Of a DNA stretch of 64,000 nt, positions 10,862 to 27,472 are shown piece by piece. Source of the stretch: Bordetella parapertussis (GTDB taxonomy: Bacteria; Pseudomonadota; Gammaproteobacteria; Burkholderiales; SG8-41); NCBI GenBank assembly GCA_945906815.1, contig CAMDRT010000001.1, forward strand, positions 1 to 64,000, given 5' to 3'. Each line of letters opens with the position of its first letter. Positions within the stretch are counted from its first letter, which is position 1. The notes under the pieces are model-generated. The model saw only the letters and a list, made by a program, of their open reading frames with translations, had not been told where the DNA came from and ran no database searches. Both the position numbers and the translations under genes were made by a program.

Positions 10862-11758
10862 TCAGATGCGGTAGAAAGACGCCGCAGTGTCGTGGAAATA
10901 TTTGCGCAACTCTGCGTCCGGCCGGTCTTTGAGTATGCGCTTGGTGGTGGTGACGAGGTCGTCATAACTCGCCCACAATTTCTCCAGCGGGAAATTGCTG
11001 CCGAAGTAACAGCGGTCGCCGCCGAATCGGTCCAGCAGATGATCGAGCGTAATGCGCATGTGGTTCTCGTCGCACTTTGCGGTAAAGAAATTCAGGCCCG
11101 AACACTTGATCCATAAATTGGGCAACGGGTGCAGGTGTTCAAGGCCTTCCTTCCAGGCGTTGACGGTTGCGTCATCGTCCGCCGTCAGCATGCCGGCATG
11201 GACCAGGCAGAAATCGGTCTGCGGATGGTTACGGATCATATCGGCAAAATACTTGAACTGGTGAGAGAAACCTTGCACTTCAAAGCTGAGCTGGTATTTT
11301 TTCAGCAGTTCGATGCCGCGCTGGAATTCATCCGTGATGCACAGATCGGGACGGTCGGTGCGGCTGCGCAACGGGTCGCCTTGCCAGAAATGCAGTTGGT
11401 GACGCACGCCGCGTGTGTTCGCGTGCTGCCGGTGTCCCTGGAGAATTTCTTCGACGTGCGGGTCAGTCATCTCGGCATGGCCGATGATGGCGTGCGGAAA
11501 ACCGGTGCGGTCAGCTTGGGTTTGTAACCATCGGGTTTCGCCGACCGGATCTGAGGGCTCGTAATTCGCCTGTACATGAACCGATTTGATCACATGGTTC
11601 GCGCTGAAATCCGCCAGCAAATCCTCAACCAGATAATTCTGCCGCAGGGGTTGGTAATTGCTGCCATACATCTTCGGTGTGATCGGCGCCACCAGCCACG
11701 GATAATTTTGCCACTCCCACAAATGGTGATGGCTGTCGATGATCGGTCCTTCATACAT
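10862..11758 (-). CDS. Amidohydrolase-2 family (TIM-barrel lactonase/decarboxylase-like) protein
   Basis: 298 residues beginning MYEGPIIDSHHHLWEW, where the HxH at residues 10-12 is the metal-binding start of the amidohydrolase superfamily. Later motifs are FCLVHAGM and a C-terminal YFGSNFPLEKL, in which the common catalytic aspartate (GSDxP) reads asparagine. Many annotated members of this subfamily carry SNFP. Relatives include L-fuconolactonase and 2-pyrone-4,6-dicarboxylate lactonase, so lactone opening is plausible but unproven. It lies 94 bp upstream of the Bug gene start at 10767 on the same strand and may be co-transcribed with it. Confidence 0.8.
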   Translation of the reverse strand: MYEGPIIDSHHHLWEWQNYPWLVAPITPKMYGSNYQPLRQNYLVEDLLADFSANHVIKSVHVQANYEPSDPVGETRWLQTQADRTGFPHAIIGHAEMTDPHVEEILQGHRQHANTRGVRHQLHFWQGDPLRSRTDRPDLCITDEFQRGIELLKKYQLSFEVQGFSHQFKYFADMIRNHPQTDFCLVHAGMLTADDDATVNAWKEGLEHLHPLPNLWIKCSGLNFFTAKCDENHMRITLDHLLDRFGGDRCYFGSNFPLEKLWASYDDLVTTTKRILKDRPDAELRKYFHDTAASFYRI

Positions 11759-15537: not shown

Positions 15538-16449
15538 ATGGACGAGGTGAAAATACTGGCGCAGGGACTGGGTTTTCCGGAAGGACCAGTGGTCTGCGCC
15601 GATGGCTCCGTAGTGTTGGTGGAGCTGCGTAATCAGCGCTGTTCGCGCGTCGCGCCGGATGGCAAGGTCAGCCTCTATTCCGAGTGCGGTGGCGGGCCCA
15701 ACGGGCTCGCGGTGGGGCCGGATGGATTTTTCTATTTGTGCAACAACGGTGGCAACCGTTATGTCGAAGGCCATCCCCTGGGCATGGGTCCGCATGCGGA
15801 TTACCAATTTGGTTGCGTCCAGCGCATCGATCCCCAAAGCGGTGTCGCAAAACTGCTGTACAAAGAAGTGAACGGCCATCTGCTGTCGGCGCCGAACGAT
15901 CTGGTGTTCGACCAGGAAGGCGGGTTCTACTTTACGGATCTTGGTAAGCGCATGCCACGTCACAAGGTTTACGGCGGCGTGTATTACGCGCTGCCTGACG
16001 GCTCGAAGGTGGTCGAAGTGGCCTATCCCGTTTTGAGTCCCAATGGCTGCGGTTTGTCGCCTGATGGCAAAACCCTCTACGTCGCAGAAACCGATGGCGC
16101 GCGGCTGTGGGCGTTTGAGGTGCTAGGTCCTGGCAAGCTGAAGCCCAAACCCGAATATGCGCCGCACAGCGGACGCGTTATTGCCGGGCTCGGCGGCAAT
16201 GCCAAGTTCGACAGCCTTAAGGTTCTGGCGAATGGCAATATCGTGGTGGCGACTTTGATCACCGGCTACCTCACGGAATTTTCGCCGGCAGGCGAAATTG
16301 TGCGCTCTGTAAAAATGCCCGATGACCATCCGACCAATCTGTGCTTTGGCGGAGCGGATATGCGCACGGCGTACATTACGCTGTCCGGCTCCGGGCAGCT
16401 GGGCGTGATGCAGTGGCCGGAGCCAGGGCTAAAGCTCAACTTCAACTAA
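15538..16449 (+). CDS. SMP-30/gluconolactonase-family protein
   Basis: 303 residues of a six-bladed propeller lactonase. Metal ligands are expected at Glu15 (FPEGPV), Asn120 (APNDLVF) and an aspartate in the NGCGLSPDGKTLY blade. Members hydrolyse sugar or other lactones with a divalent metal. AAGGAG lies just upstream of the ATG. The next gene, a CoA-transferase on the same strand, starts 93 bp downstream, so the two may form an operon. Together with the amidohydrolase it gives two potential lactone-acting enzymes in a short stretch. Confidence 0.85.
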   Translation: MDEVKILAQGLGFPEGPVVCADGSVVLVELRNQRCSRVAPDGKVSLYSECGGGPNGLAVGPDGFFYLCNNGGNRYVEGHPLGMGPHADYQFGCVQRIDPQSGVAKLLYKEVNGHLLSAPNDLVFDQEGGFYFTDLGKRMPRHKVYGGVYYALPDGSKVVEVAYPVLSPNGCGLSPDGKTLYVAETDGARLWAFEVLGPGKLKPKPEYAPHSGRVIAGLGGNAKFDSLKVLANGNIVVATLITGYLTEFSPAGEIVRSVKMPDDHPTNLCFGGADMRTAYITLSGSGQLGVMQWPEPGLKLNFN

Positions 16450-19035: not shown

Positions 19036-20235
19036 GTGCCAACTCAGCGCCGTATCACCAGTGCCGTTTTTGTGTTTACGCTTGCCCTCGTTGCTGGCGT
19101 TGGGGGTTGTAGTGAGCCGGCCGCCCCGGTCGCTGCGCAGGAGGAGGGCGTAGCGTTGACGCCGGAGCAGGCGTTTGCCGCGAACCTAAAGAAGGCCGAG
19201 GCACGTGATGCCGAGGCGCAGCAACTCACTGGATTTTCGTATCTCTACGGTATCGCGGTTGCCAAGGATGTGGCCAAGGCCACAGGTTGGTTGAGGAAGT
19301 CTGCAGCACAAGGCAATGCGGAGGCGCAATTCATTCTGGGGTGGATGTATGACGAAGCTGTCGGTGTCCCCCAGGACGCGGCCAAGGCGGCGCAGTGGTA
19401 TGAAAAAGCTGCCGCGCAGGGGCATGCAAAAGCGCAATTCAATCTGGGTTCGTCCTATTTAAACGGCGATGGTGTGCCCAAGGATGCGGCCAAAGCAGTG
19501 CAGTGGTATGAGCAGGCTGCCGCGCAGGGGCATGTAACAGCGCAATTCAATCTGGGCTGGGCCTATCTTAACGGCACTGGTGTGCCCAAGGACACGGCCA
19601 AGTCTGTCGACTGGTATGAAAAGGCTGCCGCACAGGGGAATGCAAAAGCGCAATTCAATGTGGGCTGGGCTTATTTCAATGGTGAGGGTGTCACCCGGGA
19701 TCCGTCCAATGCGGCGCAGTGGTATGAGAAGGCTGCTGCGCAGGGGCATGCCCATGCGCAATTCAACCTGGGCTGGTCCTACTTCAACGGTGATGGTGTG
19801 CCCAAGGACGCGGCCAAGGCAGCGCAGTGGTATGAAAAAGCGGCCGCGCAAGGGCATGCCCACGCGCAATTCAATCTGGGCTGGGCCTATTTCACCGGCG
19901 ATGGGGTGCCCCAGGATGCAGTTAAATCGGCCGAGTGGTATGAGAAAGCGGCCGCGCAGGGGAATGCCCATGCGCAAACCAATCTGGGTTGGTCCTATTT
20001 CCACGGCGATGGGGTGACGACGGATGCGGTGTTGGCTCACGCATGGTTTACTCTCGCGGGAGATTTGGAAAGGGCGGTAAAGGCTCGCGCCAGTGCCGCA
20101 TCGCAATTATCCCAAGCGGAATTAGCCGAAGCCCAACGTATTTCATTGGGATGGAAAAGAGGGCAGAGTCTCGTGCGTGAAGCAAAGCAGGGCGCCGCAA
20201 ACGCATCATCGGCCTCGGGAAATACAAAATTCTGA
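19036..20235 (+). CDS. Sel1-like repeat lipoprotein
   Basis: 399 residues from a GTG at 19036 following GGGGAGGG. The signal peptide ends in AGVGGC, so Cys25 is a probable lipidation site. Then come about eight Sel1 repeats of 36 residues (residues ~64-351) with the pattern NLGWxYxNGDGVPKDxAKAAQWYEKAAAQGHAxAQF. The repeats form an alpha solenoid for protein-protein contacts; such lipoproteins act as adaptors in envelope signalling or host interaction. The C-terminus (residues 352-399) is a helical, serine-rich tail. No partner gene is evident next to it. Confidence 0.88.
   Translation: MPTQRRITSAVFVFTLALVAGVGGCSEPAAPVAAQEEGVALTPEQAFAANLKKAEARDAEAQQLTGFSYLYGIAVAKDVAKATGWLRKSAAQGNAEAQFILGWMYDEAVGVPQDAAKAAQWYEKAAAQGHAKAQFNLGSSYLNGDGVPKDAAKAVQWYEQAAAQGHVTAQFNLGWAYLNGTGVPKDTAKSVDWYEKAAAQGNAKAQFNVGWAYFNGEGVTRDPSNAAQWYEKAAAQGHAHAQFNLGWSYFNGDGVPKDAAKAAQWYEKAAAQGHAHAQFNLGWAYFTGDGVPQDAVKSAEWYEKAAAQGNAHAQTNLGWSYFHGDGVTTDAVLAHAWFTLAGDLERAVKARASAASQLSQAELAEAQRISLGWKRGQSLVREAKQGAANASSASGNTKF
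19333..20088 (+). repeat. Tandem 108-bp coding repeats of the Sel1 gene
   Basis: Seven consecutive 108-bp units begin at about 19333 and repeat every 36 codons. Several neighbouring units share long near-identical DNA such as GCGCAATTCAATCTGGGCTGG. High DNA-level identity suggests recent unit duplication or gene conversion, and makes copy number prone to change. Confidence 0.75.
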
Positions 20236-20312: not shown

Positions 20313-20567
20313 TTGAATAACAAACACCGGAAAACACTGCTAGCGATCTTCGATGAACCTACTCGCTCAGATATTGAGTGGAAGGCGATAGAGGGCATGC
20401 TGCTAGCGGCGGGCGCAGAAATCAGCGAAGGTAGCGGCTCGCGGGTGCGCATTGGCTTGAAGGGCGTGCGTGCCGTGTTCCACCGGCCGCACCCGCGCAA
20501 GGAGACTGACCGGGGCGCGGTTAAGTCGATGCGGCGTTTTTTGGAGTCAGCGATGGTGATGCCATGA
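20313..20567 (+). CDS. hicA: HicA-type toxin (second copy)
   Basis: 84 residues from a TTG at 20313. The sequence DIEWKAIEGMLLAAGAEISEGSGSRVRI and the HRPHPRKETDRGAVKSMRRFLE tail are typical of a HicA subgroup whose catalytic residue is contributed near GSGSRV...H. It differs from the first HicA (no GGSH motif), so the two modules are not recent duplicates. It overlaps the hicB ATG by four bases. It appears full length. Confidence 0.82.
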   Translation: MNNKHRKTLLAIFDEPTRSDIEWKAIEGMLLAAGAEISEGSGSRVRIGLKGVRAVFHRPHPRKETDRGAVKSMRRFLESAMVMP

Positions 20568-20899
20568 TGGAATACAAGGGTTACATCGGTGTGGTCGAGT
20601 TCGACGACGAGGCAGGGATTTTTCACGGCGAAGTGGTCAATACGCGCGACGTGATCACGTTTCAGGGTAAGTCCGTGGCCGAGATCAAAAAGGCGTTCCG
20701 GGAATCGGTTGACGACTACCTGGAGTTTTGCAAGCAGCGCGGAGAAGAACCCGACAAGCCGTTTTCCGGAAAGCTGATGCTGCGCATGGAGCCGTCCCTT
20801 CATCGCGCGCTGGCGGTCGAAGCGCGGCGCGGTAAAAAAAGTATCAACAGTCTCATCGTGGAAAAGCTGCAAAAGAACCGGATGGCAAGCAATGCGTAG
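20564..20899 (+). CDS. hicB: HicB-type antitoxin (second copy)
   Basis: 111 residues starting at one of two adjacent ATGs (20564 or 20567). The N-terminal part, MEYKGYIGVVEFDDEAGIFH followed by GEVVNTRDVITFQG, is the HicB_lk fold. The C-terminal KLMLRMEPSLHRALAVEAR and KSINSLIVEKL is a ribbon-helix-helix. It is translationally coupled to hicA. It is the last intact module before the eroded toxin-antitoxin cluster on the opposite strand. Confidence 0.88.
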   Translation: MMEYKGYIGVVEFDDEAGIFHGEVVNTRDVITFQGKSVAEIKKAFRESVDDYLEFCKQRGEEPDKPFSGKLMLRMEPSLHRALAVEARRGKKSINSLIVEKLQKNRMASNA

Positions 20900-20926
20900 C
20901 CAGGCGCAAAGGGATCAAGTCTTTTG

Positions 20927-20940
20927 TTATCGTACGATAA
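20927..20940. promoter_or_regulatory. Perfect 14-bp palindrome
   Basis: TTATCGTACGATAA is a perfect palindrome between the convergent ends of hicB and the minus-strand antidote gene. It could be a protein-binding site or a hairpin tip. Function is unknown. Confidence 0.35.
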
Positions 20941-20973
20941 CGGCGGTGTTCTGAATTTTGTGTTTCTTGCGCA

Positions 20974-21324
20974 TCACGCCGCGATTGCATCAAGCGTGCG
21001 CTTTTTCCCTTTGCGCACCGGCTTGGCGGTTACGATAAGTTGCAGCCCCGTGGCGTCCAGTATCCGCGTGAGGCTGCGCAGTTCGGGATTGCCATCACTG
21101 GAAAGCGTGCGGTAAAGCTGCTGGCGATTGAGGCCCGCGCGGGCCGCTACTTTGGTGATACCGCCGTGCGCTTCTGCCACGTTACGCAAGGCTTGCAACA
21201 GCGCGCCGGGGTCTTCCTCGCTGGCGGCTGCATTGATGTAGGCCGCAGCCGTGGCAGGGTCGGCCAGCCGTTGCAACAGGTAGGGTTTATGGGGTACTGC
21301 GGGGGATACGTGTTCTTTGCGCAT
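20974..21324 (-). CDS. Addiction-module antidote (HigA-like, COG3636 type)
   Basis: 116 residues. LLQRLADPATAAAYINAAASEEDPGALLQALRNVAEAHGG is the family N-terminus, followed by a helix-turn-helix (ITKVAARAGLNRQQLYRTL) and GNPELRSLTRILDATGLQL. The start has TTGGAG upstream. Such antidotes follow a killer gene. Here only the C-terminal part of that killer remains just upstream (21287-21433), so this antitoxin looks orphaned. A basic, alanine-rich tail (KPVRKGKKRTLDAIAA) is present. Confidence 0.85.
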   Translation of the reverse strand: MRKEHVSPAVPHKPYLLQRLADPATAAAYINAAASEEDPGALLQALRNVAEAHGGITKVAARAGLNRQQLYRTLSSDGNPELRSLTRILDATGLQLIVTAKPVRKGKKRTLDAIAA

Positions 21325-21433
21325 AATCGCTCCAATACGCTTTCGCGTTTTTAATGTCCGCTTTCTGCGAACGTTTGCTGCCGCCGCAAAGCAGAATCAC
21401 AACTACCTTGCCCGCCCGCGCTTTTCGCTCGCG
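21287..21433 (-). pseudogene. C-terminal remnant of an addiction-module killer toxin (RelE/HigB type)
   Basis: An open stretch with no start codon reads RERKARAGKVVVILLCGG then SKRSQKADIKNAKAYWSDYAQRT and ends at a TAA inside the antidote's 5' end. LLCGGxKxxQxxDIxxAKxYW is the characteristic C-terminus of the killer proteins that precede COG3636 antidotes, with the expected gene overlap. The first two-thirds of the toxin are missing. The fragment begins immediately after the stop of the upstream XRE gene, in the same frame, marking a deletion junction at about 21433. Confidence 0.7.
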
Positions 21434-21724
21434 TTACGCGGCCTTCTTCACCCGCAGTTGCACGCGCAGGCCCGCGTGCGCCAGCATGTTCACCAGCGCA
21501 TCAAGGCTGAATTTGTCTATCCTGCCGCGCACCACGTCATTAAGGCGCGGCTGCGTGATGCCGAAGCGCTTGGCTGCTTCGCGCTGCGTTGCGCCACGCG
21601 CGGCAGTGCGCACGCGCGACATGAGTTGTGCGCGCAACATCAGGTTGTTCGCTTCGTCGGACGCAAACCCCAAGTCCTGAAAAACGTTGCCGCTGCCGCG
21701 CGTCATTTTCAGTTTGGTGTTCAT
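21434..21724 (-). CDS. XRE-family antitoxin-like regulator, orphan
   Basis: 96 residues from an ATG at 21724. The helix-turn-helix region is QREAAKRFGITQPRLNDVVRG, followed by FSLDALVNMLAHAGLRVQLRV, matching the short XRE antitoxins that pair with Gp49- or RelE-like toxins. FQDLGFASDEANNLMLRAQLM is the usual N-terminus. The partner toxin would lie upstream, but only 16 bp separate this gene from the next antitoxin, so no toxin is present. The frame itself is intact. Confidence 0.8.
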   Translation of the reverse strand: MNTKLKMTRGSGNVFQDLGFASDEANNLMLRAQLMSRVRTAARGATQREAAKRFGITQPRLNDVVRGRIDKFSLDALVNMLAHAGLRVQLRVKKAA

Positions 21725-21740
21725 CTTTGCTGCGGCGTTG

Positions 21741-22094
21741 TTATACCGCTCTTTGCACCCGGCCCGTGCGGGTTGTAACGCGGGTGACAGGCAGTGAGGC
21801 GCGGAATGCCGCACGAACCGCAGCGGGCTGCTTTGACGCCACCAGCAACAGTGCGCGCGCTGGCCCGTGAGGCTCACGCCGCGCCTGTTCCCAATTGCGC
21901 AGCGTTCCCACGCTTACCCCCATGAACCCGGCAAATTCGGTCTGTGAGAGGCCAAGTTCCTTGCGAATCATAGGCACGTCCGAGGCCGAGGGCATCTCAA
22001 CCGTGTGTGTTTTGAGCTTTACTTTGCCTTGCCGCCACGCCTTGAGCTCTTGCAAGCCTTCGATGATTTCTTTGCCGATATCGCGCTTTTTCAT
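21741..22094 (-). CDS. NadS/HigA-like XRE antitoxin
   Basis: 117 residues. KKRDIGKEIIEGLQELKAW is the family N-terminus, and VPMIRKELGLSQTEFAGFMGVSVGTLRNWEQARREPHGPARALL is a helix-turn-helix with the diagnostic WEQxRRxPxGPAxxLL motif of antitoxins paired with RelE-type toxins. The start overlaps the end of the truncated relE-like frame upstream (ATGA). The C-terminal 25 residues (FRASLPVTRVTTRTGRV) are less typical and could reflect a changed 3' end. Confidence 0.85.
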   Translation of the reverse strand: MKKRDIGKEIIEGLQELKAWRQGKVKLKTHTVEMPSASDVPMIRKELGLSQTEFAGFMGVSVGTLRNWEQARREPHGPARALLLVASKQPAAVRAAFRASLPVTRVTTRTGRVQRAV

Positions 22095-22617: not shown

Positions 22618-23826
22618 TTACTTCCAGTTCCAGAAATCCTGCCGTTCTTTCATCAACGCTTTCGCCAGTACCATCTTGTGCACTTCGGACGCGCCATCAA
22701 CTAGGCGCGCCTGCCGCGCGTAGCGATACATCCATTCCAGTGGCGTGTCTTTCGAATAGCCGCGTGCGCCGTTGAGTTGTATGGCGGTATCCACGGCGTG
22801 ATGCAGCACATCGGCGACGACGATTTTTGCCATCGACACTTCCTTGCGCGCGTAGTCGCCGGCGTCGAGTTTGGCAGCCGCGCGCATCACCAGCATGCGG
22901 CCGATTTCGATTTGCATGGCGGCGTCGCCCAGCAGCCATTGCACGCTTTCCTTGTCGCCGAGTTTGCCGCCGTGGGTCATGCGGGTGTCGACGTAATCGG
23001 CAGCGATCTCCATCGCGCGGCGCGCGAGTCCCAGCCAGCGCATGCAGTGTGTGAGGCGCGCGGTGCCGAGCCGGATCTGTACGAACTTGAGTCCGTCGCC
23101 GACGTTCATCACGCGATTTTCATCGGGAATTTCGAGGCCGTCGAATTCAAGTTCGCAGTGGCCGCCGTGTTCTTCCGGCCCCATGATGGGGATGCGGCGC
23201 AGGATGCGCCAGCCGGGTTGGTCTTTGTGGAACAGGAACGCGGTGAGTCCTTTGCGCGGATCGTCCGAGGTCTTTGCCAGCAGCAGAAAATGTGAGGCCA
23301 CACCCGCGCCGGTGATGAACCATTTACGGCCTTTAATAATCCAATTGTCGCCCGATTTTCCTCGCACTGGGGTGGCGGTGGTGAGCGTCATGGTCGGATC
23401 GGAGCCGCTGCCCGGTGCCGGTTCAGTCATCACGATGGAGGAGCGCACTTTGCCTTCGACGATGGGCATCATCCAGCGCGTTTTCTGCGCGGGCGTGGCG
23501 ACTTTGTTCAACACCATCATGTTGCCGTCGTCGGGCGCGGCGCAGTTGAACACCACCGGGCCGAAGATCGAGTAGTTCATTTCTTCGTAACATGCGGCCA
23601 TGCCGACCACGGACAGGCCCTGACCGCCGACGGCTATGGGCATTTGCGGGCACCACAGGCCAGCGGCCTTCGCCTTGGCGCGTAGTGTTTCGAGTAAATC
23701 GAGGCGTATGTTTTCGTGATCGTCGAACGACGCCGCGTCGCGTTCGAGCGGTAGTATGTGCGCGGCGACAAAGGCCTTGTAGCGTGCGCGGTAGCTTTCT
23801 ATTGCGGGAGGCAGAGTGAAGTCCAT
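22618..23826 (-). CDS. Acyl-CoA dehydrogenase (ACAD10/11 or LvaC-like)
   Basis: About 402 residues. The start MDFTLPPAIESYRARYKAF at 23826 is preferred over 23874. FAD and substrate motifs include MTEPAPGSGSDP, KWFITGAG and a C-terminal NGARGYSKDTPLEWMYRYARQARLVDGASEVHK. The FVAAHILPLE N-terminus and YRxARxxRLxDGxxEVH end resemble the ACAD family that works with an APH-type kinase on 4-hydroxyacyl-CoAs. An acyl-CoA synthetase, a DUF6285-like protein and such a kinase follow upstream on the same strand. A 32-bp inverted repeat separates it from the ligase gene. Confidence 0.9.
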   Translation of the reverse strand: MDFTLPPAIESYRARYKAFVAAHILPLERDAASFDDHENIRLDLLETLRAKAKAAGLWCPQMPIAVGGQGLSVVGMAACYEEMNYSIFGPVVFNCAAPDDGNMMVLNKVATPAQKTRWMMPIVEGKVRSSIVMTEPAPGSGSDPTMTLTTATPVRGKSGDNWIIKGRKWFITGAGVASHFLLLAKTSDDPRKGLTAFLFHKDQPGWRILRRIPIMGPEEHGGHCELEFDGLEIPDENRVMNVGDGLKFVQIRLGTARLTHCMRWLGLARRAMEIAADYVDTRMTHGGKLGDKESVQWLLGDAAMQIEIGRMLVMRAAAKLDAGDYARKEVSMAKIVVADVLHHAVDTAIQLNGARGYSKDTPLEWMYRYARQARLVDGASEVHKMVLAKALMKERQDFWNWK

Positions 23827-23868
23827 GGGGGTTCCGGTTAGGGGAAGGGCAAGGGCAAGGGCATTTTT

Positions 23869-23982
23869 AACCACAGATGAACACAGATAAACACAGATAA
23901 GTTCAAACGCAATAAATACTCTATCTCACTGTTATAGAAGGGTTTTTCATTTATCTGTGTTCATCTGTGTTCATCTGTGGTT
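23869..23982. repeat. Long hairpin built from the word ATCTGTGTTC
   Basis: The left arm (23869-23900, containing AACCACAGATGAACACAG) and right arm (23951-23982, containing CATCTGTGTTCATCTGTGG) are inverted copies matching at 31 of 32 positions. Each arm is itself a tandem of a 10-bp word. The loop is 50 nt and AT-rich. It lies between two minus-strand genes, upstream of the acyl-CoA dehydrogenase start. Confidence 0.8.
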
Positions 23983-23993
23983 CATATGGTTTT

Positions 23994-25553
23994 TCAGTCT
24001 TTCAACGCACGTGCCATCTCGCGCAACACGAATTTCTGGATTTTTCCAGTGGCGTTCTTGGGTAGTTCACCAAACACAATTATTTTTGGCGCTTTAAAAC
24101 GCGCCATGTGTTCCTGCGCATAGGCGATCAAGGCCGCCGCATCGAGTGTTTGCCCGGGCTTGAGGGTGACAAATGCGATCGGCACTTCGCCCCATTTTTC
24201 ATCCGGCGCAGCGACCACCGCGGCTTCCAAAACGGCAGGGTGTGCCGACAGCGTGCGTTCGACCTCCACTGAAGCGATATTTTCGCCACCGGAGATGATG
24301 ATGTCTTTGGCGCGATCTTTGATTTCGATGTACCCGTCGGCGTGCAGCACCGCGAGGTCGCCGCTGCGAAACCAGCCGTCGGGTGCGGCTTTGCGCGTGG
24401 CGTCATCATCGCGATAGTAGCCGAGCATTACGTTGTTGCCGCGCAACGCGATTTCACCCAGCGTGGCGCCGTCGTTCGGCACATCGCCGCCTTGGGCATT
24501 CACCACGCGCAGGGATTGCGCCACCACGTTGCCTACACCCTGACGTGCTTTGATCTGCGCTTGCTGCGCGGCGGGCCACTGATCCCAATCCTTACGCCAT
24601 TCGCAGATGACGGCGGGGCCAAAGGTTTCAGTCAGGCCGTACAGATGGGTCATGTTCATGTTGAGTTCGGCCATGCGGGCGAGCAGCGCCGGCGTGGGTG
24701 GTGCGCCACCGGTGGAGACGTTGACGGTGCGCGCGAGCGGCTGCGCGCCGGGGTGCCACGCCAGCATGATGAGTATGGTGGGTGCGGCGTTGAACTGGGT
24801 GACGCCAGAATCGCGCAAGTGGTTCCAGATCAGCGCCGGATCGGCTTTACGCAGGCACAGGTGGGTGCCGCCCGCGGCGGTTACCGCCCAGGTGAAACAC
24901 CAGCCGTTGCAGTGAAACATCGGCAGCGTCCACAAAAAAACACTGCTTTCATTGAGCGCGCTGTGCATCGCCATCGCCAGCGCCTGCAGGTACGCGCCGC
25001 GATGGTGGTACATCACGCCTTTGGGTTTGCCGGTGGTGCCGCTGGTGTAGTTGATGCTGAGCAGGCTGCGTTCGTCGCTGACCGCTGCAGAGTAGGGCGT
25101 GGCAGTAGCGAGCAAGTGTTGATACTGATCATCGCCGCCGGCGCGGATCAGCGTGATCTTGCATTTTGCGTTGGCAGCGATAGTGCGTGCGGTGTCCTCG
25201 AATTCAAAATCGTAAATGAGTGTCTGCGCGTCGCAGTGTTCGATGATGTAGGTCAGATCAGCGGCGGTGAGCCGTACGTTCAGTGCCACCAGCACGGCGC
25301 CCGCAAATGGCACGCCGTAGTGCGCTTCGAGCAACACGTGCGTGTTGGGCGCGAGTACTGCCACGCGCTCGCCGGGGCGCACGCCGGCGTTACGCAGCGC
25401 ACCTGCAAGCCGTGTGCAGCGATCAAATAGTTGCGCGTAGGTCCAGCGCTGATCGCCGTCGATAACGGCCGTTTTGTCGGCGAAAACCAGCGCCGAGCGG
25501 CGCAGAAAAGCGCTCGGGGTGAGCGCTTCAAACGCCATGGGGGTGTTAAGCAT
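23994..25553 (-). CDS. Acyl-CoA synthetase, AMP-forming
   Basis: 519 residues of the adenylate-forming family that makes acyl-CoA from a carboxylate, ATP and CoA. Motifs in order: YTSGTTGKPKGVMYHHRG (phosphate loop, ~residue 170), LPMFHCNGWCFTW, YGLTETFGPAVICEW, GWFRSGDLAVLHADGYIEIKDR, SGGENIASVEVE and the catalytic lysine in PKNATGKIQK. The HCNGW motif is typical of medium- or short-chain members, for example methylthiopropionyl or LvaE types. It is placed between an acyl-CoA dehydrogenase and a putative hydroxyacyl kinase, so it probably supplies their CoA thioester. Confidence 0.93.
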   Translation of the reverse strand: MLNTPMAFEALTPSAFLRRSALVFADKTAVIDGDQRWTYAQLFDRCTRLAGALRNAGVRPGERVAVLAPNTHVLLEAHYGVPFAGAVLVALNVRLTAADLTYIIEHCDAQTLIYDFEFEDTARTIAANAKCKITLIRAGGDDQYQHLLATATPYSAAVSDERSLLSINYTSGTTGKPKGVMYHHRGAYLQALAMAMHSALNESSVFLWTLPMFHCNGWCFTWAVTAAGGTHLCLRKADPALIWNHLRDSGVTQFNAAPTILIMLAWHPGAQPLARTVNVSTGGAPPTPALLARMAELNMNMTHLYGLTETFGPAVICEWRKDWDQWPAAQQAQIKARQGVGNVVAQSLRVVNAQGGDVPNDGATLGEIALRGNNVMLGYYRDDDATRKAAPDGWFRSGDLAVLHADGYIEIKDRAKDIIISGGENIASVEVERTLSAHPAVLEAAVVAAPDEKWGEVPIAFVTLKPGQTLDAAALIAYAQEHMARFKAPKIIVFGELPKNATGKIQKFVLREMARALKD

Positions 25554-25585
25554 AAGCTATTGTTTTTAAATGAATTTTTGGAATT

Positions 25586-25963
25586 TTATGTCGTTTCCTG
25601 CAGACCTTTGGGATAAGTTATGGCGAGTTGGGCGCGCGCCCCGGCCAGCAGGTGTAGCCGCAGCCGGGTTTGCTGATCGGCGCTGCTTTCAAATTTGCCG
25701 TGACGTATGTCCAGCGCCAATTGGCGATTGCGTGCAGGCAAGGCGGCAGCATGCTGCGCGTCGTTGTAAAGCCAGTCGAGGCTGCGCATTTCTTCGCCGG
25801 TATTTTTGTCGTGTGATGCGAGCTCGCGCGCGGCGATGCCGAGCGCGTTGGCGATCATGTGCAGGGTATAGCGTTGCTCCGGCTGTGCGCTGGGCAATAT
25901 CTCCTGCGCCAGTGTTTGATGGGCAATACGCAGCAACTCCAGTGCGTTGGGTCTGTCGGTCAT
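25586..25963 (-). CDS. Small DUF6285-like protein, probable partner of the kinase (LvaB-like)
   Basis: 125 residues from an ATG at 25963 that overlaps the kinase stop (ATGA). MTDRPNALELLRIAHQTLAQEILP and the central RYTLHMIANALGIAARELA match the small helical proteins encoded next to APH-type kinases in acyl-CoA catabolic operons. In the levulinate pathway a small protein in this position (LvaB) is needed for kinase activity, so a similar role is inferred. No catalytic motif is visible. The family name is from memory and needs a profile search. Confidence 0.7.
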   Translation of the reverse strand: MTDRPNALELLRIAHQTLAQEILPSAQPEQRYTLHMIANALGIAARELASHDKNTGEEMRSLDWLYNDAQHAAALPARNRQLALDIRHGKFESSADQQTRLRLHLLAGARAQLAITYPKGLQETT

Positions 25964-26988
25964 GGTGATGGGGTTGGTGAGTCGGTCAGTTGCATGATTT
26001 CCCACTCAAGTTCGGCGACGATTTTACCGGTGAGCGCCAGTTCAAGCGACGGCTCGACGCCGGATAAATGCCGCTGCGCCTGCTGTAGCGCGATAACAGA
26101 CCACCGGATATGCGCCATCACCTGCCAGTAGCGCAGCGCCGCAGCGGGCACTTTGCGTCCGCTGGCGGCCTCGTAGGCCGCTATGAAATCATCGAGATCG
26201 GCCACACCACCGACGCTGTAATGTGAATGTCGAAAGCACCAGCACTTGGCGCAAATCCAGCCGATGTCTTCAAGCGGGTTGCCAAATGCCGCGAATTCCC
26301 AATCGAGCAAGCCGGCGAGCTTACCCTCATGCAGCAGATAGTTGCCGGTACGAAAATCACGATGCACGAAAGTGGTTTCTTCCTGCGCAGGCGCGTGGCG
26401 TTCGCACCAGCGTAAGCCCCATTCCAGCACCGGATGCGGTTCGTCCAGCGTGTCGAGATAGGCGCGGCAGGCATGGATGACATCGCGCGCGAGTAAGGTT
26501 TTCAGGAAAGGCAGTTCATTAAGCGGCGGACGGATGGCGTGGATGCGCGCAGCGGTTTGCGCCAGTGCTTGCGCCAGCGCGCGGCGGTCAAACGCGAGTC
26601 GCACCACTTTATGGCCGGCGGCGATGCCGGGCAGCTTTTCCATTACAAAAAAAGGTTTGCCGATAACGGCGACATCGTTGCACAGGAACAGCGGTGTGGG
26701 TGCCAGCAGTCCATGCTCGTGCGCAAAGCGGATGATGGCGAATTCGCGCTCGCGCGGCAGGCTCGAGGCCACAGTTGCCGGCGCGTCGGTGCGTAGCACC
26801 CAGGTATGTGTGCCGGCATGCGCGCCGCCGTCAACAGCGACATTCAGTTCCCAGTTTTGCTGAATCGCGCCGCCGGACAACAGCTTAAGTTGCGTGACGT
26901 TTACCGTGCGCGCAGCGCATGCATGGCGCAGAAAACGCTCGATCGCGTCCTGGGCTGGTGGGGTGTTTTGGCGCGAGGTGTTAGACAT
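25960..26988 (-). CDS. APH-fold phosphotransferase (ACAD10/11 or LvaA-like hydroxyacyl-CoA kinase)
   Basis: 342 residues with an aminoglycoside-phosphotransferase/choline-kinase fold. The N-terminal lobe has LSGGAIQQNWELNV and the WVLRTDAP lysine-equivalent region. The catalytic loop HRDFRTGN is at residues 209-216 and the metal-binding DWE at 229-231. PREREFAIIRFAHEHGLLAPTPLFLC is typical of the acyl-CoA-linked subgroup. In ACAD10/11 and LvaA such kinases phosphorylate a 4-hydroxyacyl-CoA so that a dehydrogenase-fold enzyme can remove the phosphate. The gene is first in a four-gene minus-strand set with DUF6285-like, ligase and dehydrogenase genes. Confidence 0.85.
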   Translation of the reverse strand: MSNTSRQNTPPAQDAIERFLRHACAARTVNVTQLKLLSGGAIQQNWELNVAVDGGAHAGTHTWVLRTDAPATVASSLPREREFAIIRFAHEHGLLAPTPLFLCNDVAVIGKPFFVMEKLPGIAAGHKVVRLAFDRRALAQALAQTAARIHAIRPPLNELPFLKTLLARDVIHACRAYLDTLDEPHPVLEWGLRWCERHAPAQEETTFVHRDFRTGNYLLHEGKLAGLLDWEFAAFGNPLEDIGWICAKCWCFRHSHYSVGGVADLDDFIAAYEAASGRKVPAAALRYWQVMAHIRWSVIALQQAQRHLSGVEPSLELALTGKIVAELEWEIMQLTDSPTPSP

Positions 26989-27094
26989 GCGAGGGGATTA
27001 GGCTGAACCAAATCCTATTCTCCCTGTATCGGAGGCAACCTACAACCATCGCCAGTGCTATGATTGCATACAGCACAAAGCGATGGAGGTTTTC

Positions 27095-27472
27095 ATGATC
27101 AAGGATTTCGATCACGTGGTGCTGACCACGGCTGATCTGGACAAGTGTCTCGACTTTTACACCCGCGTGCTGGGCATGCGGGTGGAGCATTTTGGCGCCG
27201 GGCGCATTGCGCTGCGCTTTGGCGAGCGCAAGTTCAACGTGCATCCGCCGGGTTTCGAGGCCGGGTTAAAGGCGCATAAGCCGACACCGGGTTCGCTGGA
27301 TTTTTGTTTTCTTGCCGACAAACCGATGGCTGAAGTGATCGCGCATCTGCAAGCGTGCAACGTCACCATCATCGACGGACCGGGCAAACGCACCGGCGCG
27401 CGTTTTGATCTGCGCTCGGTGTATGTGCGCGATCCGGACCAGAATCTGGTTGAAATTTCCGAGCCGTATTGA
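27095..27472 (+). CDS. VOC/glyoxalase-family metalloprotein
   Basis: 125 residues from the ATG at 27095, which follows a GGAGG inside the alternative start at 27083. IKDFDHVVLTTADLDKCLDFYTRVLGM is a classic vicinal-oxygen-chelate N-terminus with the first metal histidine. The end VRDPDQNLVEISEPY carries the metal glutamate. Members include glyoxalases, fosfomycin-resistance proteins and dioxygenases; this subgroup is often annotated as virulence protein without known substrate. The next gene begins 15 bp downstream. Confidence 0.82.
   Translation: MIKDFDHVVLTTADLDKCLDFYTRVLGMRVEHFGAGRIALRFGERKFNVHPPGFEAGLKAHKPTPGSLDFCFLADKPMAEVIAHLQACNVTIIDGPGKRTGARFDLRSVYVRDPDQNLVEISEPY

Follow-up and report, generated by a model that had tools for sequence, protein, structure and literature searches.

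The question raised by the stretch analysed here, the first 64,000 nucleotides of contig CAMDRT010000001.1 of the Bordetella parapertussis assembly GCA_945906815.1 (hereafter the window), is which substrates are processed by a cluster of four neighbouring genes encoding a kinase, a small DUF6285 protein, an acyl-coenzyme A (CoA) ligase and an acyl-CoA dehydrogenase. An original prediction, made from the DNA alone, had assigned to them the roles of LvaA, LvaB, LvaE and LvaC in the breakdown of 4-hydroxyacyl-CoAs and had noted the lack of a reductase like LvaD. The genome in hand comprises 4.77 Mb in 97 contigs, with a completeness of 95. With a probability of roughly 0.77, the four genes feed 4-hydroxy acids into beta-oxidation by means of phosphorylation and phosphate elimination, without the usual reductase; the pathway is a known one, of which the cluster is best described as a reductase-free form. 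Pfam matches place all four proteins in the expected families; their genes all lie on the minus strand, the kinase first, followed by DUF6285, the ligase and the dehydrogenase. The catalytic and signature residues, the correspondence of DUF6285 to an annotated LvaB and the conserved clustering make the cluster look like LvaA, LvaB and LvaC plus a ligase, in support of the four predicted roles.

In the proposed route, the ligase would convert the 4-hydroxy acid to its CoA ester, and the kinase, together with DUF6285, would phosphorylate the 4-hydroxyl using adenosine triphosphate (ATP). The flavoprotein would then hold the 4-phosphate through R268, H276 and R279, while D393 takes the alpha proton; with a transient use of flavin adenine dinucleotide and no net oxidation, phosphate would be eliminated to yield a 2-enoyl-CoA destined for beta-oxidation. 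Each reaction is predicted by transfer from the published biochemistry of LvaABC and ACAD10/11. Growth of Pseudomonas putida on levulinate is reported to require each of lvaA, lvaB and lvaC, and LvaB was pulled down with LvaA (PMC6692424).

In mouse ACAD11, R626, H634 and R637 are described as the 4-phosphate set, D753 as the base and R631 as a general family residue, non-conservative changes in the R626/H634/R637 set being the most disruptive (PMC12440821). ACAD11 R626, R631, H634, R637 and D753 align with R268, R273, H276, R279 and D393 of the cluster dehydrogenase, and the histidine of the GGH motif is also kept (H239, corresponding to mouse H597). This five-residue signature was found in one of the 29 dehydrogenase matches in the genome, the cluster enzyme only, some of the other rows being gapped at one position. 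Among 43 dehydrogenases from the window and the loci of its relatives, 25 carry the signature (18 window-like, one of which ends before the aspartate, 2 lva-operon-like and 5 ACAD11-like), and 13 of the remaining 18 read F-R-Q-S-E at the five positions. A genome scan yielded loci from the best 80 of 570 relatives, so that its counts describe the nearer relatives. The catalytic aspartate is present in all 80 dehydrogenases of these loci; the arginine, histidine and arginine are no evidence there, being selected for by a scan pattern (ARLTHCMR, one of two) and by the row filter. As the Pfam and NCBIfam names are by themselves generic, the genes could be read as serving ordinary fatty-acid beta-oxidation, next to a kinase that has nothing to do with them, but this is highly improbable given the signature residues, the occurrence of the kinase (at E 0.001) and of DUF6285 as single copies in the source genome, and the fact that the set recurs across Alpha-, Beta- and Gammaproteobacteria.

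In a tree of 40 dehydrogenase rows, with long branches flagged among those from the source genome, the window type (18 rows, support 97/99), the lva-operon type (4 rows) and the ACAD11 type (4 rows) form one group of 26 rows (100/97), and the conventional dehydrogenases fall outside it. Since the window-type rows separate inside this group, the cluster dehydrogenase belongs to a third clade, outside those of the lva operon and ACAD11. Its closest named records, 88-89% identical, come from metagenome-assembled genomes labelled only as Burkholderiales or Betaproteobacteria, for which reason the source genome is taken to be probably betaproteobacterial.

The kinase residues listed in the table below conform to the H-x-D-x4-N and D-W-E pattern of LvaA-type APH kinases, and its PDB sequence matches include the ACAD11 kinase domain (E 7.5e-15). 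The protein annotated as kinase subunit LvaB on a P. aeruginosa plasmid (WP_015270461.1) is a DUF6285 protein (85 bits), 42% identical to that of the cluster, and its operon is annotated in the order prpR, phosphotransferase, lvaB, dehydrogenase, short-chain dehydrogenase/reductase (SDR), acyl-CoA synthetase, DUF485, symporter; neither this protein nor the cluster DUF6285 matched an NCBIfam model. Judged by these matches, DUF6285 is the LvaB family, KT2440 LvaB lying outside the set of sequences compared. At 51 of 52 DUF6285 loci compared from other genomes (38 of these had a match, and 33 of the 38 were covered), a kinase of the window kind, termed type A, is encoded within 300 bp on the same strand, fused to DUF6285 in 10, which is more than chance would give; the sole exception (L055) has a weak kinase trace only. 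Many kinases of this set, above all those beside F-R-Q-S-E dehydrogenases, score about 160-260 bits against the type A profile, compared with about 400-570 in the window lineage.

Several variations on this pair were observed. Kinase-DUF6285 pairs or fusions adjoin the F-R-Q-S-E dehydrogenase clade at loci L066, L069-L071, L073, L076, L077, L079, L080, L092, L097, L098 and L100; the conventional glutamate base of this clade suggests a second use of an LvaA/LvaB-like pair. In several clusters (L131 9360-10121, L134 10647-11360, L268 8372-9049), the gene immediately after DUF6285 encodes a histidine phosphatase, which might remove stray phosphoacyl-CoA. On a Cupriavidus plasmid (L269 6057-12769), the pair lies between dapA-like and indolepyruvate oxidoreductase-like genes, and no acyl-CoA dehydrogenase is annotated within that stretch. 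Ten loci were compared from the family of G387, which is probably Pseudomonadaceae, as its members hold the Stutzerimonas protein at 100% identity. Five of them (L247-L250 and L252) carry a divergent ligase and have DUF6285 placed between the genes for the kinase and the histidine phosphatase, and L251 has neither kinase nor DUF6285. A similar layout is described for P. citronellolis, in which lvaB was reported as not found (PMC6692424); a diverged DUF6285 gene may have been overlooked there.

The AlphaFold2 model of DUF6285 is all-helical, with five helices (mean predicted local distance difference test score, pLDDT, 92.6; predicted template modelling score, pTM, 0.73), and neither its best fold match in the PDB (E 1.1) nor the best PDB sequence match (E 0.25) is significant. 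The model of a natural kinase-DUF6285 fusion (L153) is confident in the kinase part and poor in the DUF6285 part (pLDDT below 50 at 433-498; pTM 0.74). Row L194, which holds undetermined letters, was excluded from alignment A4. Structures of the 25-hydroxysteroid kinase (25-HSK) of Sterolibacterium denitrificans rank among the top five fold matches of the modelled type A kinase-DUF6285 fusion, and the dehydrogenase type and neighbouring genes differ between lineages, as might be expected if the pair acted on some other hydroxyl (tertiary, 5-hydroxy or in the side chain of a cyclic compound) and the flavoprotein removed the phosphate. Such a role is improbable, since 25-HSK is reported to act on free steroid alcohols, whereas here a CoA ligase and an enzyme with the ACAD11 signature stand in one unit.

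The reductase that the original prediction noted as missing is indeed absent, from the cluster of the window and from those of its family relatives, in none of which an LvaD-type SDR was found. Of the 80 scan loci, 66 extend 2.5 kb or more beyond the dehydrogenase in each direction (full-context loci), and 55 of these have a same-strand SDR of one clade within 2.5 kb of that gene; the other 11 also lack the SDR, so that the loss is not unique to the window lineage (at least 9 changes on a quick tree). The source genome has 39 SDR matches, the best 44% identical to a cluster SDR; identities among cluster SDRs range from 48% to 81%. In a quick tree of 43 rows, 23 cluster SDRs form one group (Shimodaira-Hasegawa-like approximate likelihood ratio test 95) that includes none of the 8 best SDRs of the genome, the 31 weaker matches not being placed. 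Within the genus, no close LvaD-type copy was found: matches with E of at most 1e-55 occur in 12 of 14 genomes, at 43-45% identity throughout. SDRs of this identity are also present in G406 and G408, two genus genomes searched for DUF6285 without a match, and are therefore not tied to the cluster. The absence of an LvaD orthologue from this 95% complete genome is thus well supported by sequence, which does not extend to the absence of a reductase activity.

These results bear on a further possibility, that the core reactions proceed as proposed on a 4-oxo acid such as levulinate, with an unlinked SDR performing the LvaD step. The many SDRs of the genome would offer candidates, and a P. putida strain without lvaE still grows on levulinate, which indicates that unlinked enzymes can cover a step (PMC6692424). 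We nevertheless regard it as unlikely, though it is the alternative to be taken most seriously, since the best candidates fall outside the cluster-SDR clade and their like recur in the genus without regard to the cluster. The missing reductase fits, without proving it, a natural substrate that may already be 4-hydroxylated.

The relatives were further examined for the kind of kinase accompanying the dehydrogenase. A second, ACAD11-like kinase (type B) was recognised besides type A, the catalytic residues being kept in all 18 type B rows and in 54 of the 56 type A rows, with gaps in the remaining 2. One or the other lies within 3 kb of the dehydrogenase in 55 of the 66 full-context loci (type A 42, type B 13), and a ligase within 4 kb in 41. 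DUF6285 accompanies 41 of the 42 type A and none of the 13 type B kinases, the single exception (L173) being a 533-residue protein with a long tail of no assigned family. Over all 80 loci, there are 53 type A kinases (47 with DUF6285; 5 of the other 6 at contig ends), 14 type B kinases (none with DUF6285) and 13 loci with neither. At kinase-less loci, a third kinase type was sought among 17 neighbouring open reading frames (ORFs) of 11 loci (L178 left out) and rejected: 9 fall in families other than kinases (phosphodiesterase, integrase, VWA/Tad, amidohydrolase, ABC binding protein, DUF815, patatin and SDR), and the 8 that lack a match may be false ORFs.

ACAD11 R176 has been modelled as CoA-binding (PMC12440821). 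An RQ..RW motif aligned to this stretch is present in all 18 type B kinases and in none of the 56 of type A; an arginine occupies the equivalent place in 13 of the latter, and the cluster kinase has R168 there without the motif. Since DUF6285 is linked to the type A kinases, which lack the motif, it may supply CoA recognition to them. We tentatively extend this, with rather less than even confidence, to the proposal that LvaB is a detachable acyl-CoA-recognition subunit needed by type A kinases and gone with type B, in which case the cluster, with its third dehydrogenase clade and no LvaD, would be a dedicated route for 4-hydroxy acids derived from lactones, with a substrate range of its own. 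On a quick tree of 99 dehydrogenases, the minimum number of changes is 3 for kinase type, 4 for DUF6285 and 9 for SDR, and the link between kinase type and DUF6285 comprises only 2 independent pairs when supported branches are counted and 3 when all are, the pairs being in agreement (sign test p 0.5). With few kinase swaps (at least 3) and a pairwise test too small for significance, this link should not be over-read.

Several observations weigh against a 4-hydroxy acid route. Identity to the lva-operon proteins is low (dehydrogenase 44%, kinase 47-48%, DUF6285 39-42%, ligase 49-51%). The dehydrogenase of L131, the stand-in for LvaC, scores 196 bits against ACAD11, the window enzyme 205 and a closer homologue (L070:5099) 391; the score of L131, about half of the latter, is at odds with the 56-62% identity reported between P. 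putida LvaC and ACAD11/ACAD10 (PMC11342911), the comparison having been made with L131 and not with KT2440 LvaC itself. No recognised kinase lies near the dehydrogenase in 11 of the 66 full-context relatives. At 14 of the 52 kinase-DUF6285 loci, only non-signature dehydrogenases occur within 3.5 kb, and 19 have none at that distance (several at contig ends); as pairs stand beside non-signature dehydrogenases, the pair alone is no proof of a 4-hydroxy substrate.

Features of the four-gene cluster and its ligase-dehydrogenase gap (window coordinates; aa, amino acids; nt, nucleotides)
Feature	Position	Strand	Evidence
LvaA-like kinase, 342 aa, type A	25960..26988	minus	Pfam APH 131 bits; GGAIQ motif; H209, D211, N216, D229-W-E
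DUF6285/LvaB-like protein, 125 aa	25586..25963	minus	PF19802 54.8 bits, cut-off 28.1
Acyl-CoA ligase (putative LvaE role), 519 aa, PRK08162-like	23994..25553	minus	AMP-binding 274 + 74 bits; 660 bits, just below cut-off 677
LvaC/ACAD10-11-type flavoprotein, 402 aa	22618..23826	minus	Acyl-CoA dehydrogenase Pfam domains; R268, R273, H276, R279, D393 in 418-aa numbering
Overlap of kinase stop and DUF6285 start, ATGA, 4 bases	25960..25963	minus	Sequence
Palindromic repeat in ligase-dehydrogenase gap	23869..23982	.	Arms 39 nt, 90% complementary

The overlaps predicted between the genes hold for kinase and DUF6285 only, DUF6285 and ligase being separated by 32 bases and ligase and dehydrogenase by 167 if the latter starts at ATG 23826; an alternative start at GTG 23874 gives 418 residues, and most close relatives have 398. 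The DUF6285 ORF as listed extends back to GTG 26005, while ATG 25963 overlaps the kinase stop, and the ATGA would allow translational coupling of the two genes. Compared with two relatives, the four genes show mostly silent change (Ka 0.03-0.27, Ks 0.23-1.34). The palindromic element, with its CACAGATGAACACAGAT repeats, has 92 matches in the genome (46 per strand, at most 1 mismatch; reversed control 0) and is a dispersed element that probably has no part in the pathway. In L049 and L051 the ligase-dehydrogenase gap is short, and in L052, L053 and L063 it holds other inverted repeats; the site thus seems to have been hit repeatedly.

Upstream, a small glyoxalase-fold gene (27083-27472) is divergent from the kinase, 94 bases away, and in 10 of 15 stretches from relatives it recurs together with the three genes that follow it (one transglutaminase/TPR by Pfam, then two that by eye resemble NfeD and SPFH). 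Past the 3' end of the cluster lie several small genes (20564-22094), HicB/HTH-type antitoxin-like by eye, and a gene for a 399-residue protein (19036-20235) with repeated Sel1-like units and a lipoprotein-like start (by eye), of which a homologue (81% identical) was found in L049 only among the 15 stretches. The suggestion that nearby lactonase-family genes supply the substrate fared poorly: one is indeed a SMP-30/gluconolactonase (15538-16449), the other is a PF04909 amidohydrolase (10862-11758), and neither looks part of the unit. The former recurs in 1 of the 15 stretches (L049, 92%) and the latter in none, several stretches being too short to tell and that of L049 ending before the amidohydrolase position. 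Rough gene calling gave 318 genes in the neighbourhood of the dehydrogenase in the scan loci, and 129 of them were tallied. The 25 most frequent of their 119 families include no lactonase, and no other gene proved a constant partner, the most frequent family having 5 members.

Homologues of lvaABCD are reported from Alpha-, Beta- and Gammaproteobacteria (PMC6692424), and this kind of pathway is hence itself known. In the literature searched on lva homologues and DUF6285, no description was found of an LvaD-less cluster or of two kinase types, nor was the family name DUF6285 found. The cluster would extend a recently explained bacterial and mammalian route, from 4-hydroxy acids through phosphorylation to beta-oxidation, to a reductase-free form. 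DUF6285 would gain a role, together with the question of why LvaA needs LvaB when the kinases of ACAD10/11 manage without one. The third dehydrogenase clade may differ in chain length and might find use in lactone or levulinate conversion or for polymer precursors.

Comparison with known systems helps place the cluster. 25-HSK shares with it the APH kinase fold and the phosphorylation of an alcohol within an ATP-dependent dehydration, but is reported to act on the tertiary alcohol of free steroids; in our reading, that route involves neither a CoA ester nor a partner of the acyl-CoA dehydrogenase type. Mammalian ACAD10/ACAD11 have the same five active-site residues and an APH-fold kinase partner, whereas here the polypeptides are separate, the kinase lacks RQ..RW, DUF6285 is present and the dehydrogenase is of another clade. 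Clusters of Achromobacter, Bordetella, Roseobacteraceae and Chelatococcus share the dehydrogenase clade, usually with an SDR and often with a ligase, but have the ACAD11-like type B kinase and no DUF6285.

The lva operon was reportedly first described by Rand et al. 2017. It was represented here by clusters of Stutzerimonas and a P. aeruginosa plasmid rather than by KT2440; the Stutzerimonas cluster has the layout of the plasmid operon plus a histidine phosphatase. No ORF of the size of a PrpR/LvaR-like regulator (about 650 residues) was found at 15.5-31 kb of the window, by a size criterion only and with the genome not searched. The Pseudomonas lva operon (LvaABCDE) and the present cluster agree in the kinase type, in DUF6285/LvaB directly after the kinase, in the signature dehydrogenase and in a similar ligase (49-51% identical to those of both clusters); the present cluster differs in its order A-B-E-C, in having no LvaD-type SDR and no DUF485/symporter pair seen, in proteins 39-51% identical and in a dehydrogenase that forms a separate, supported clade.

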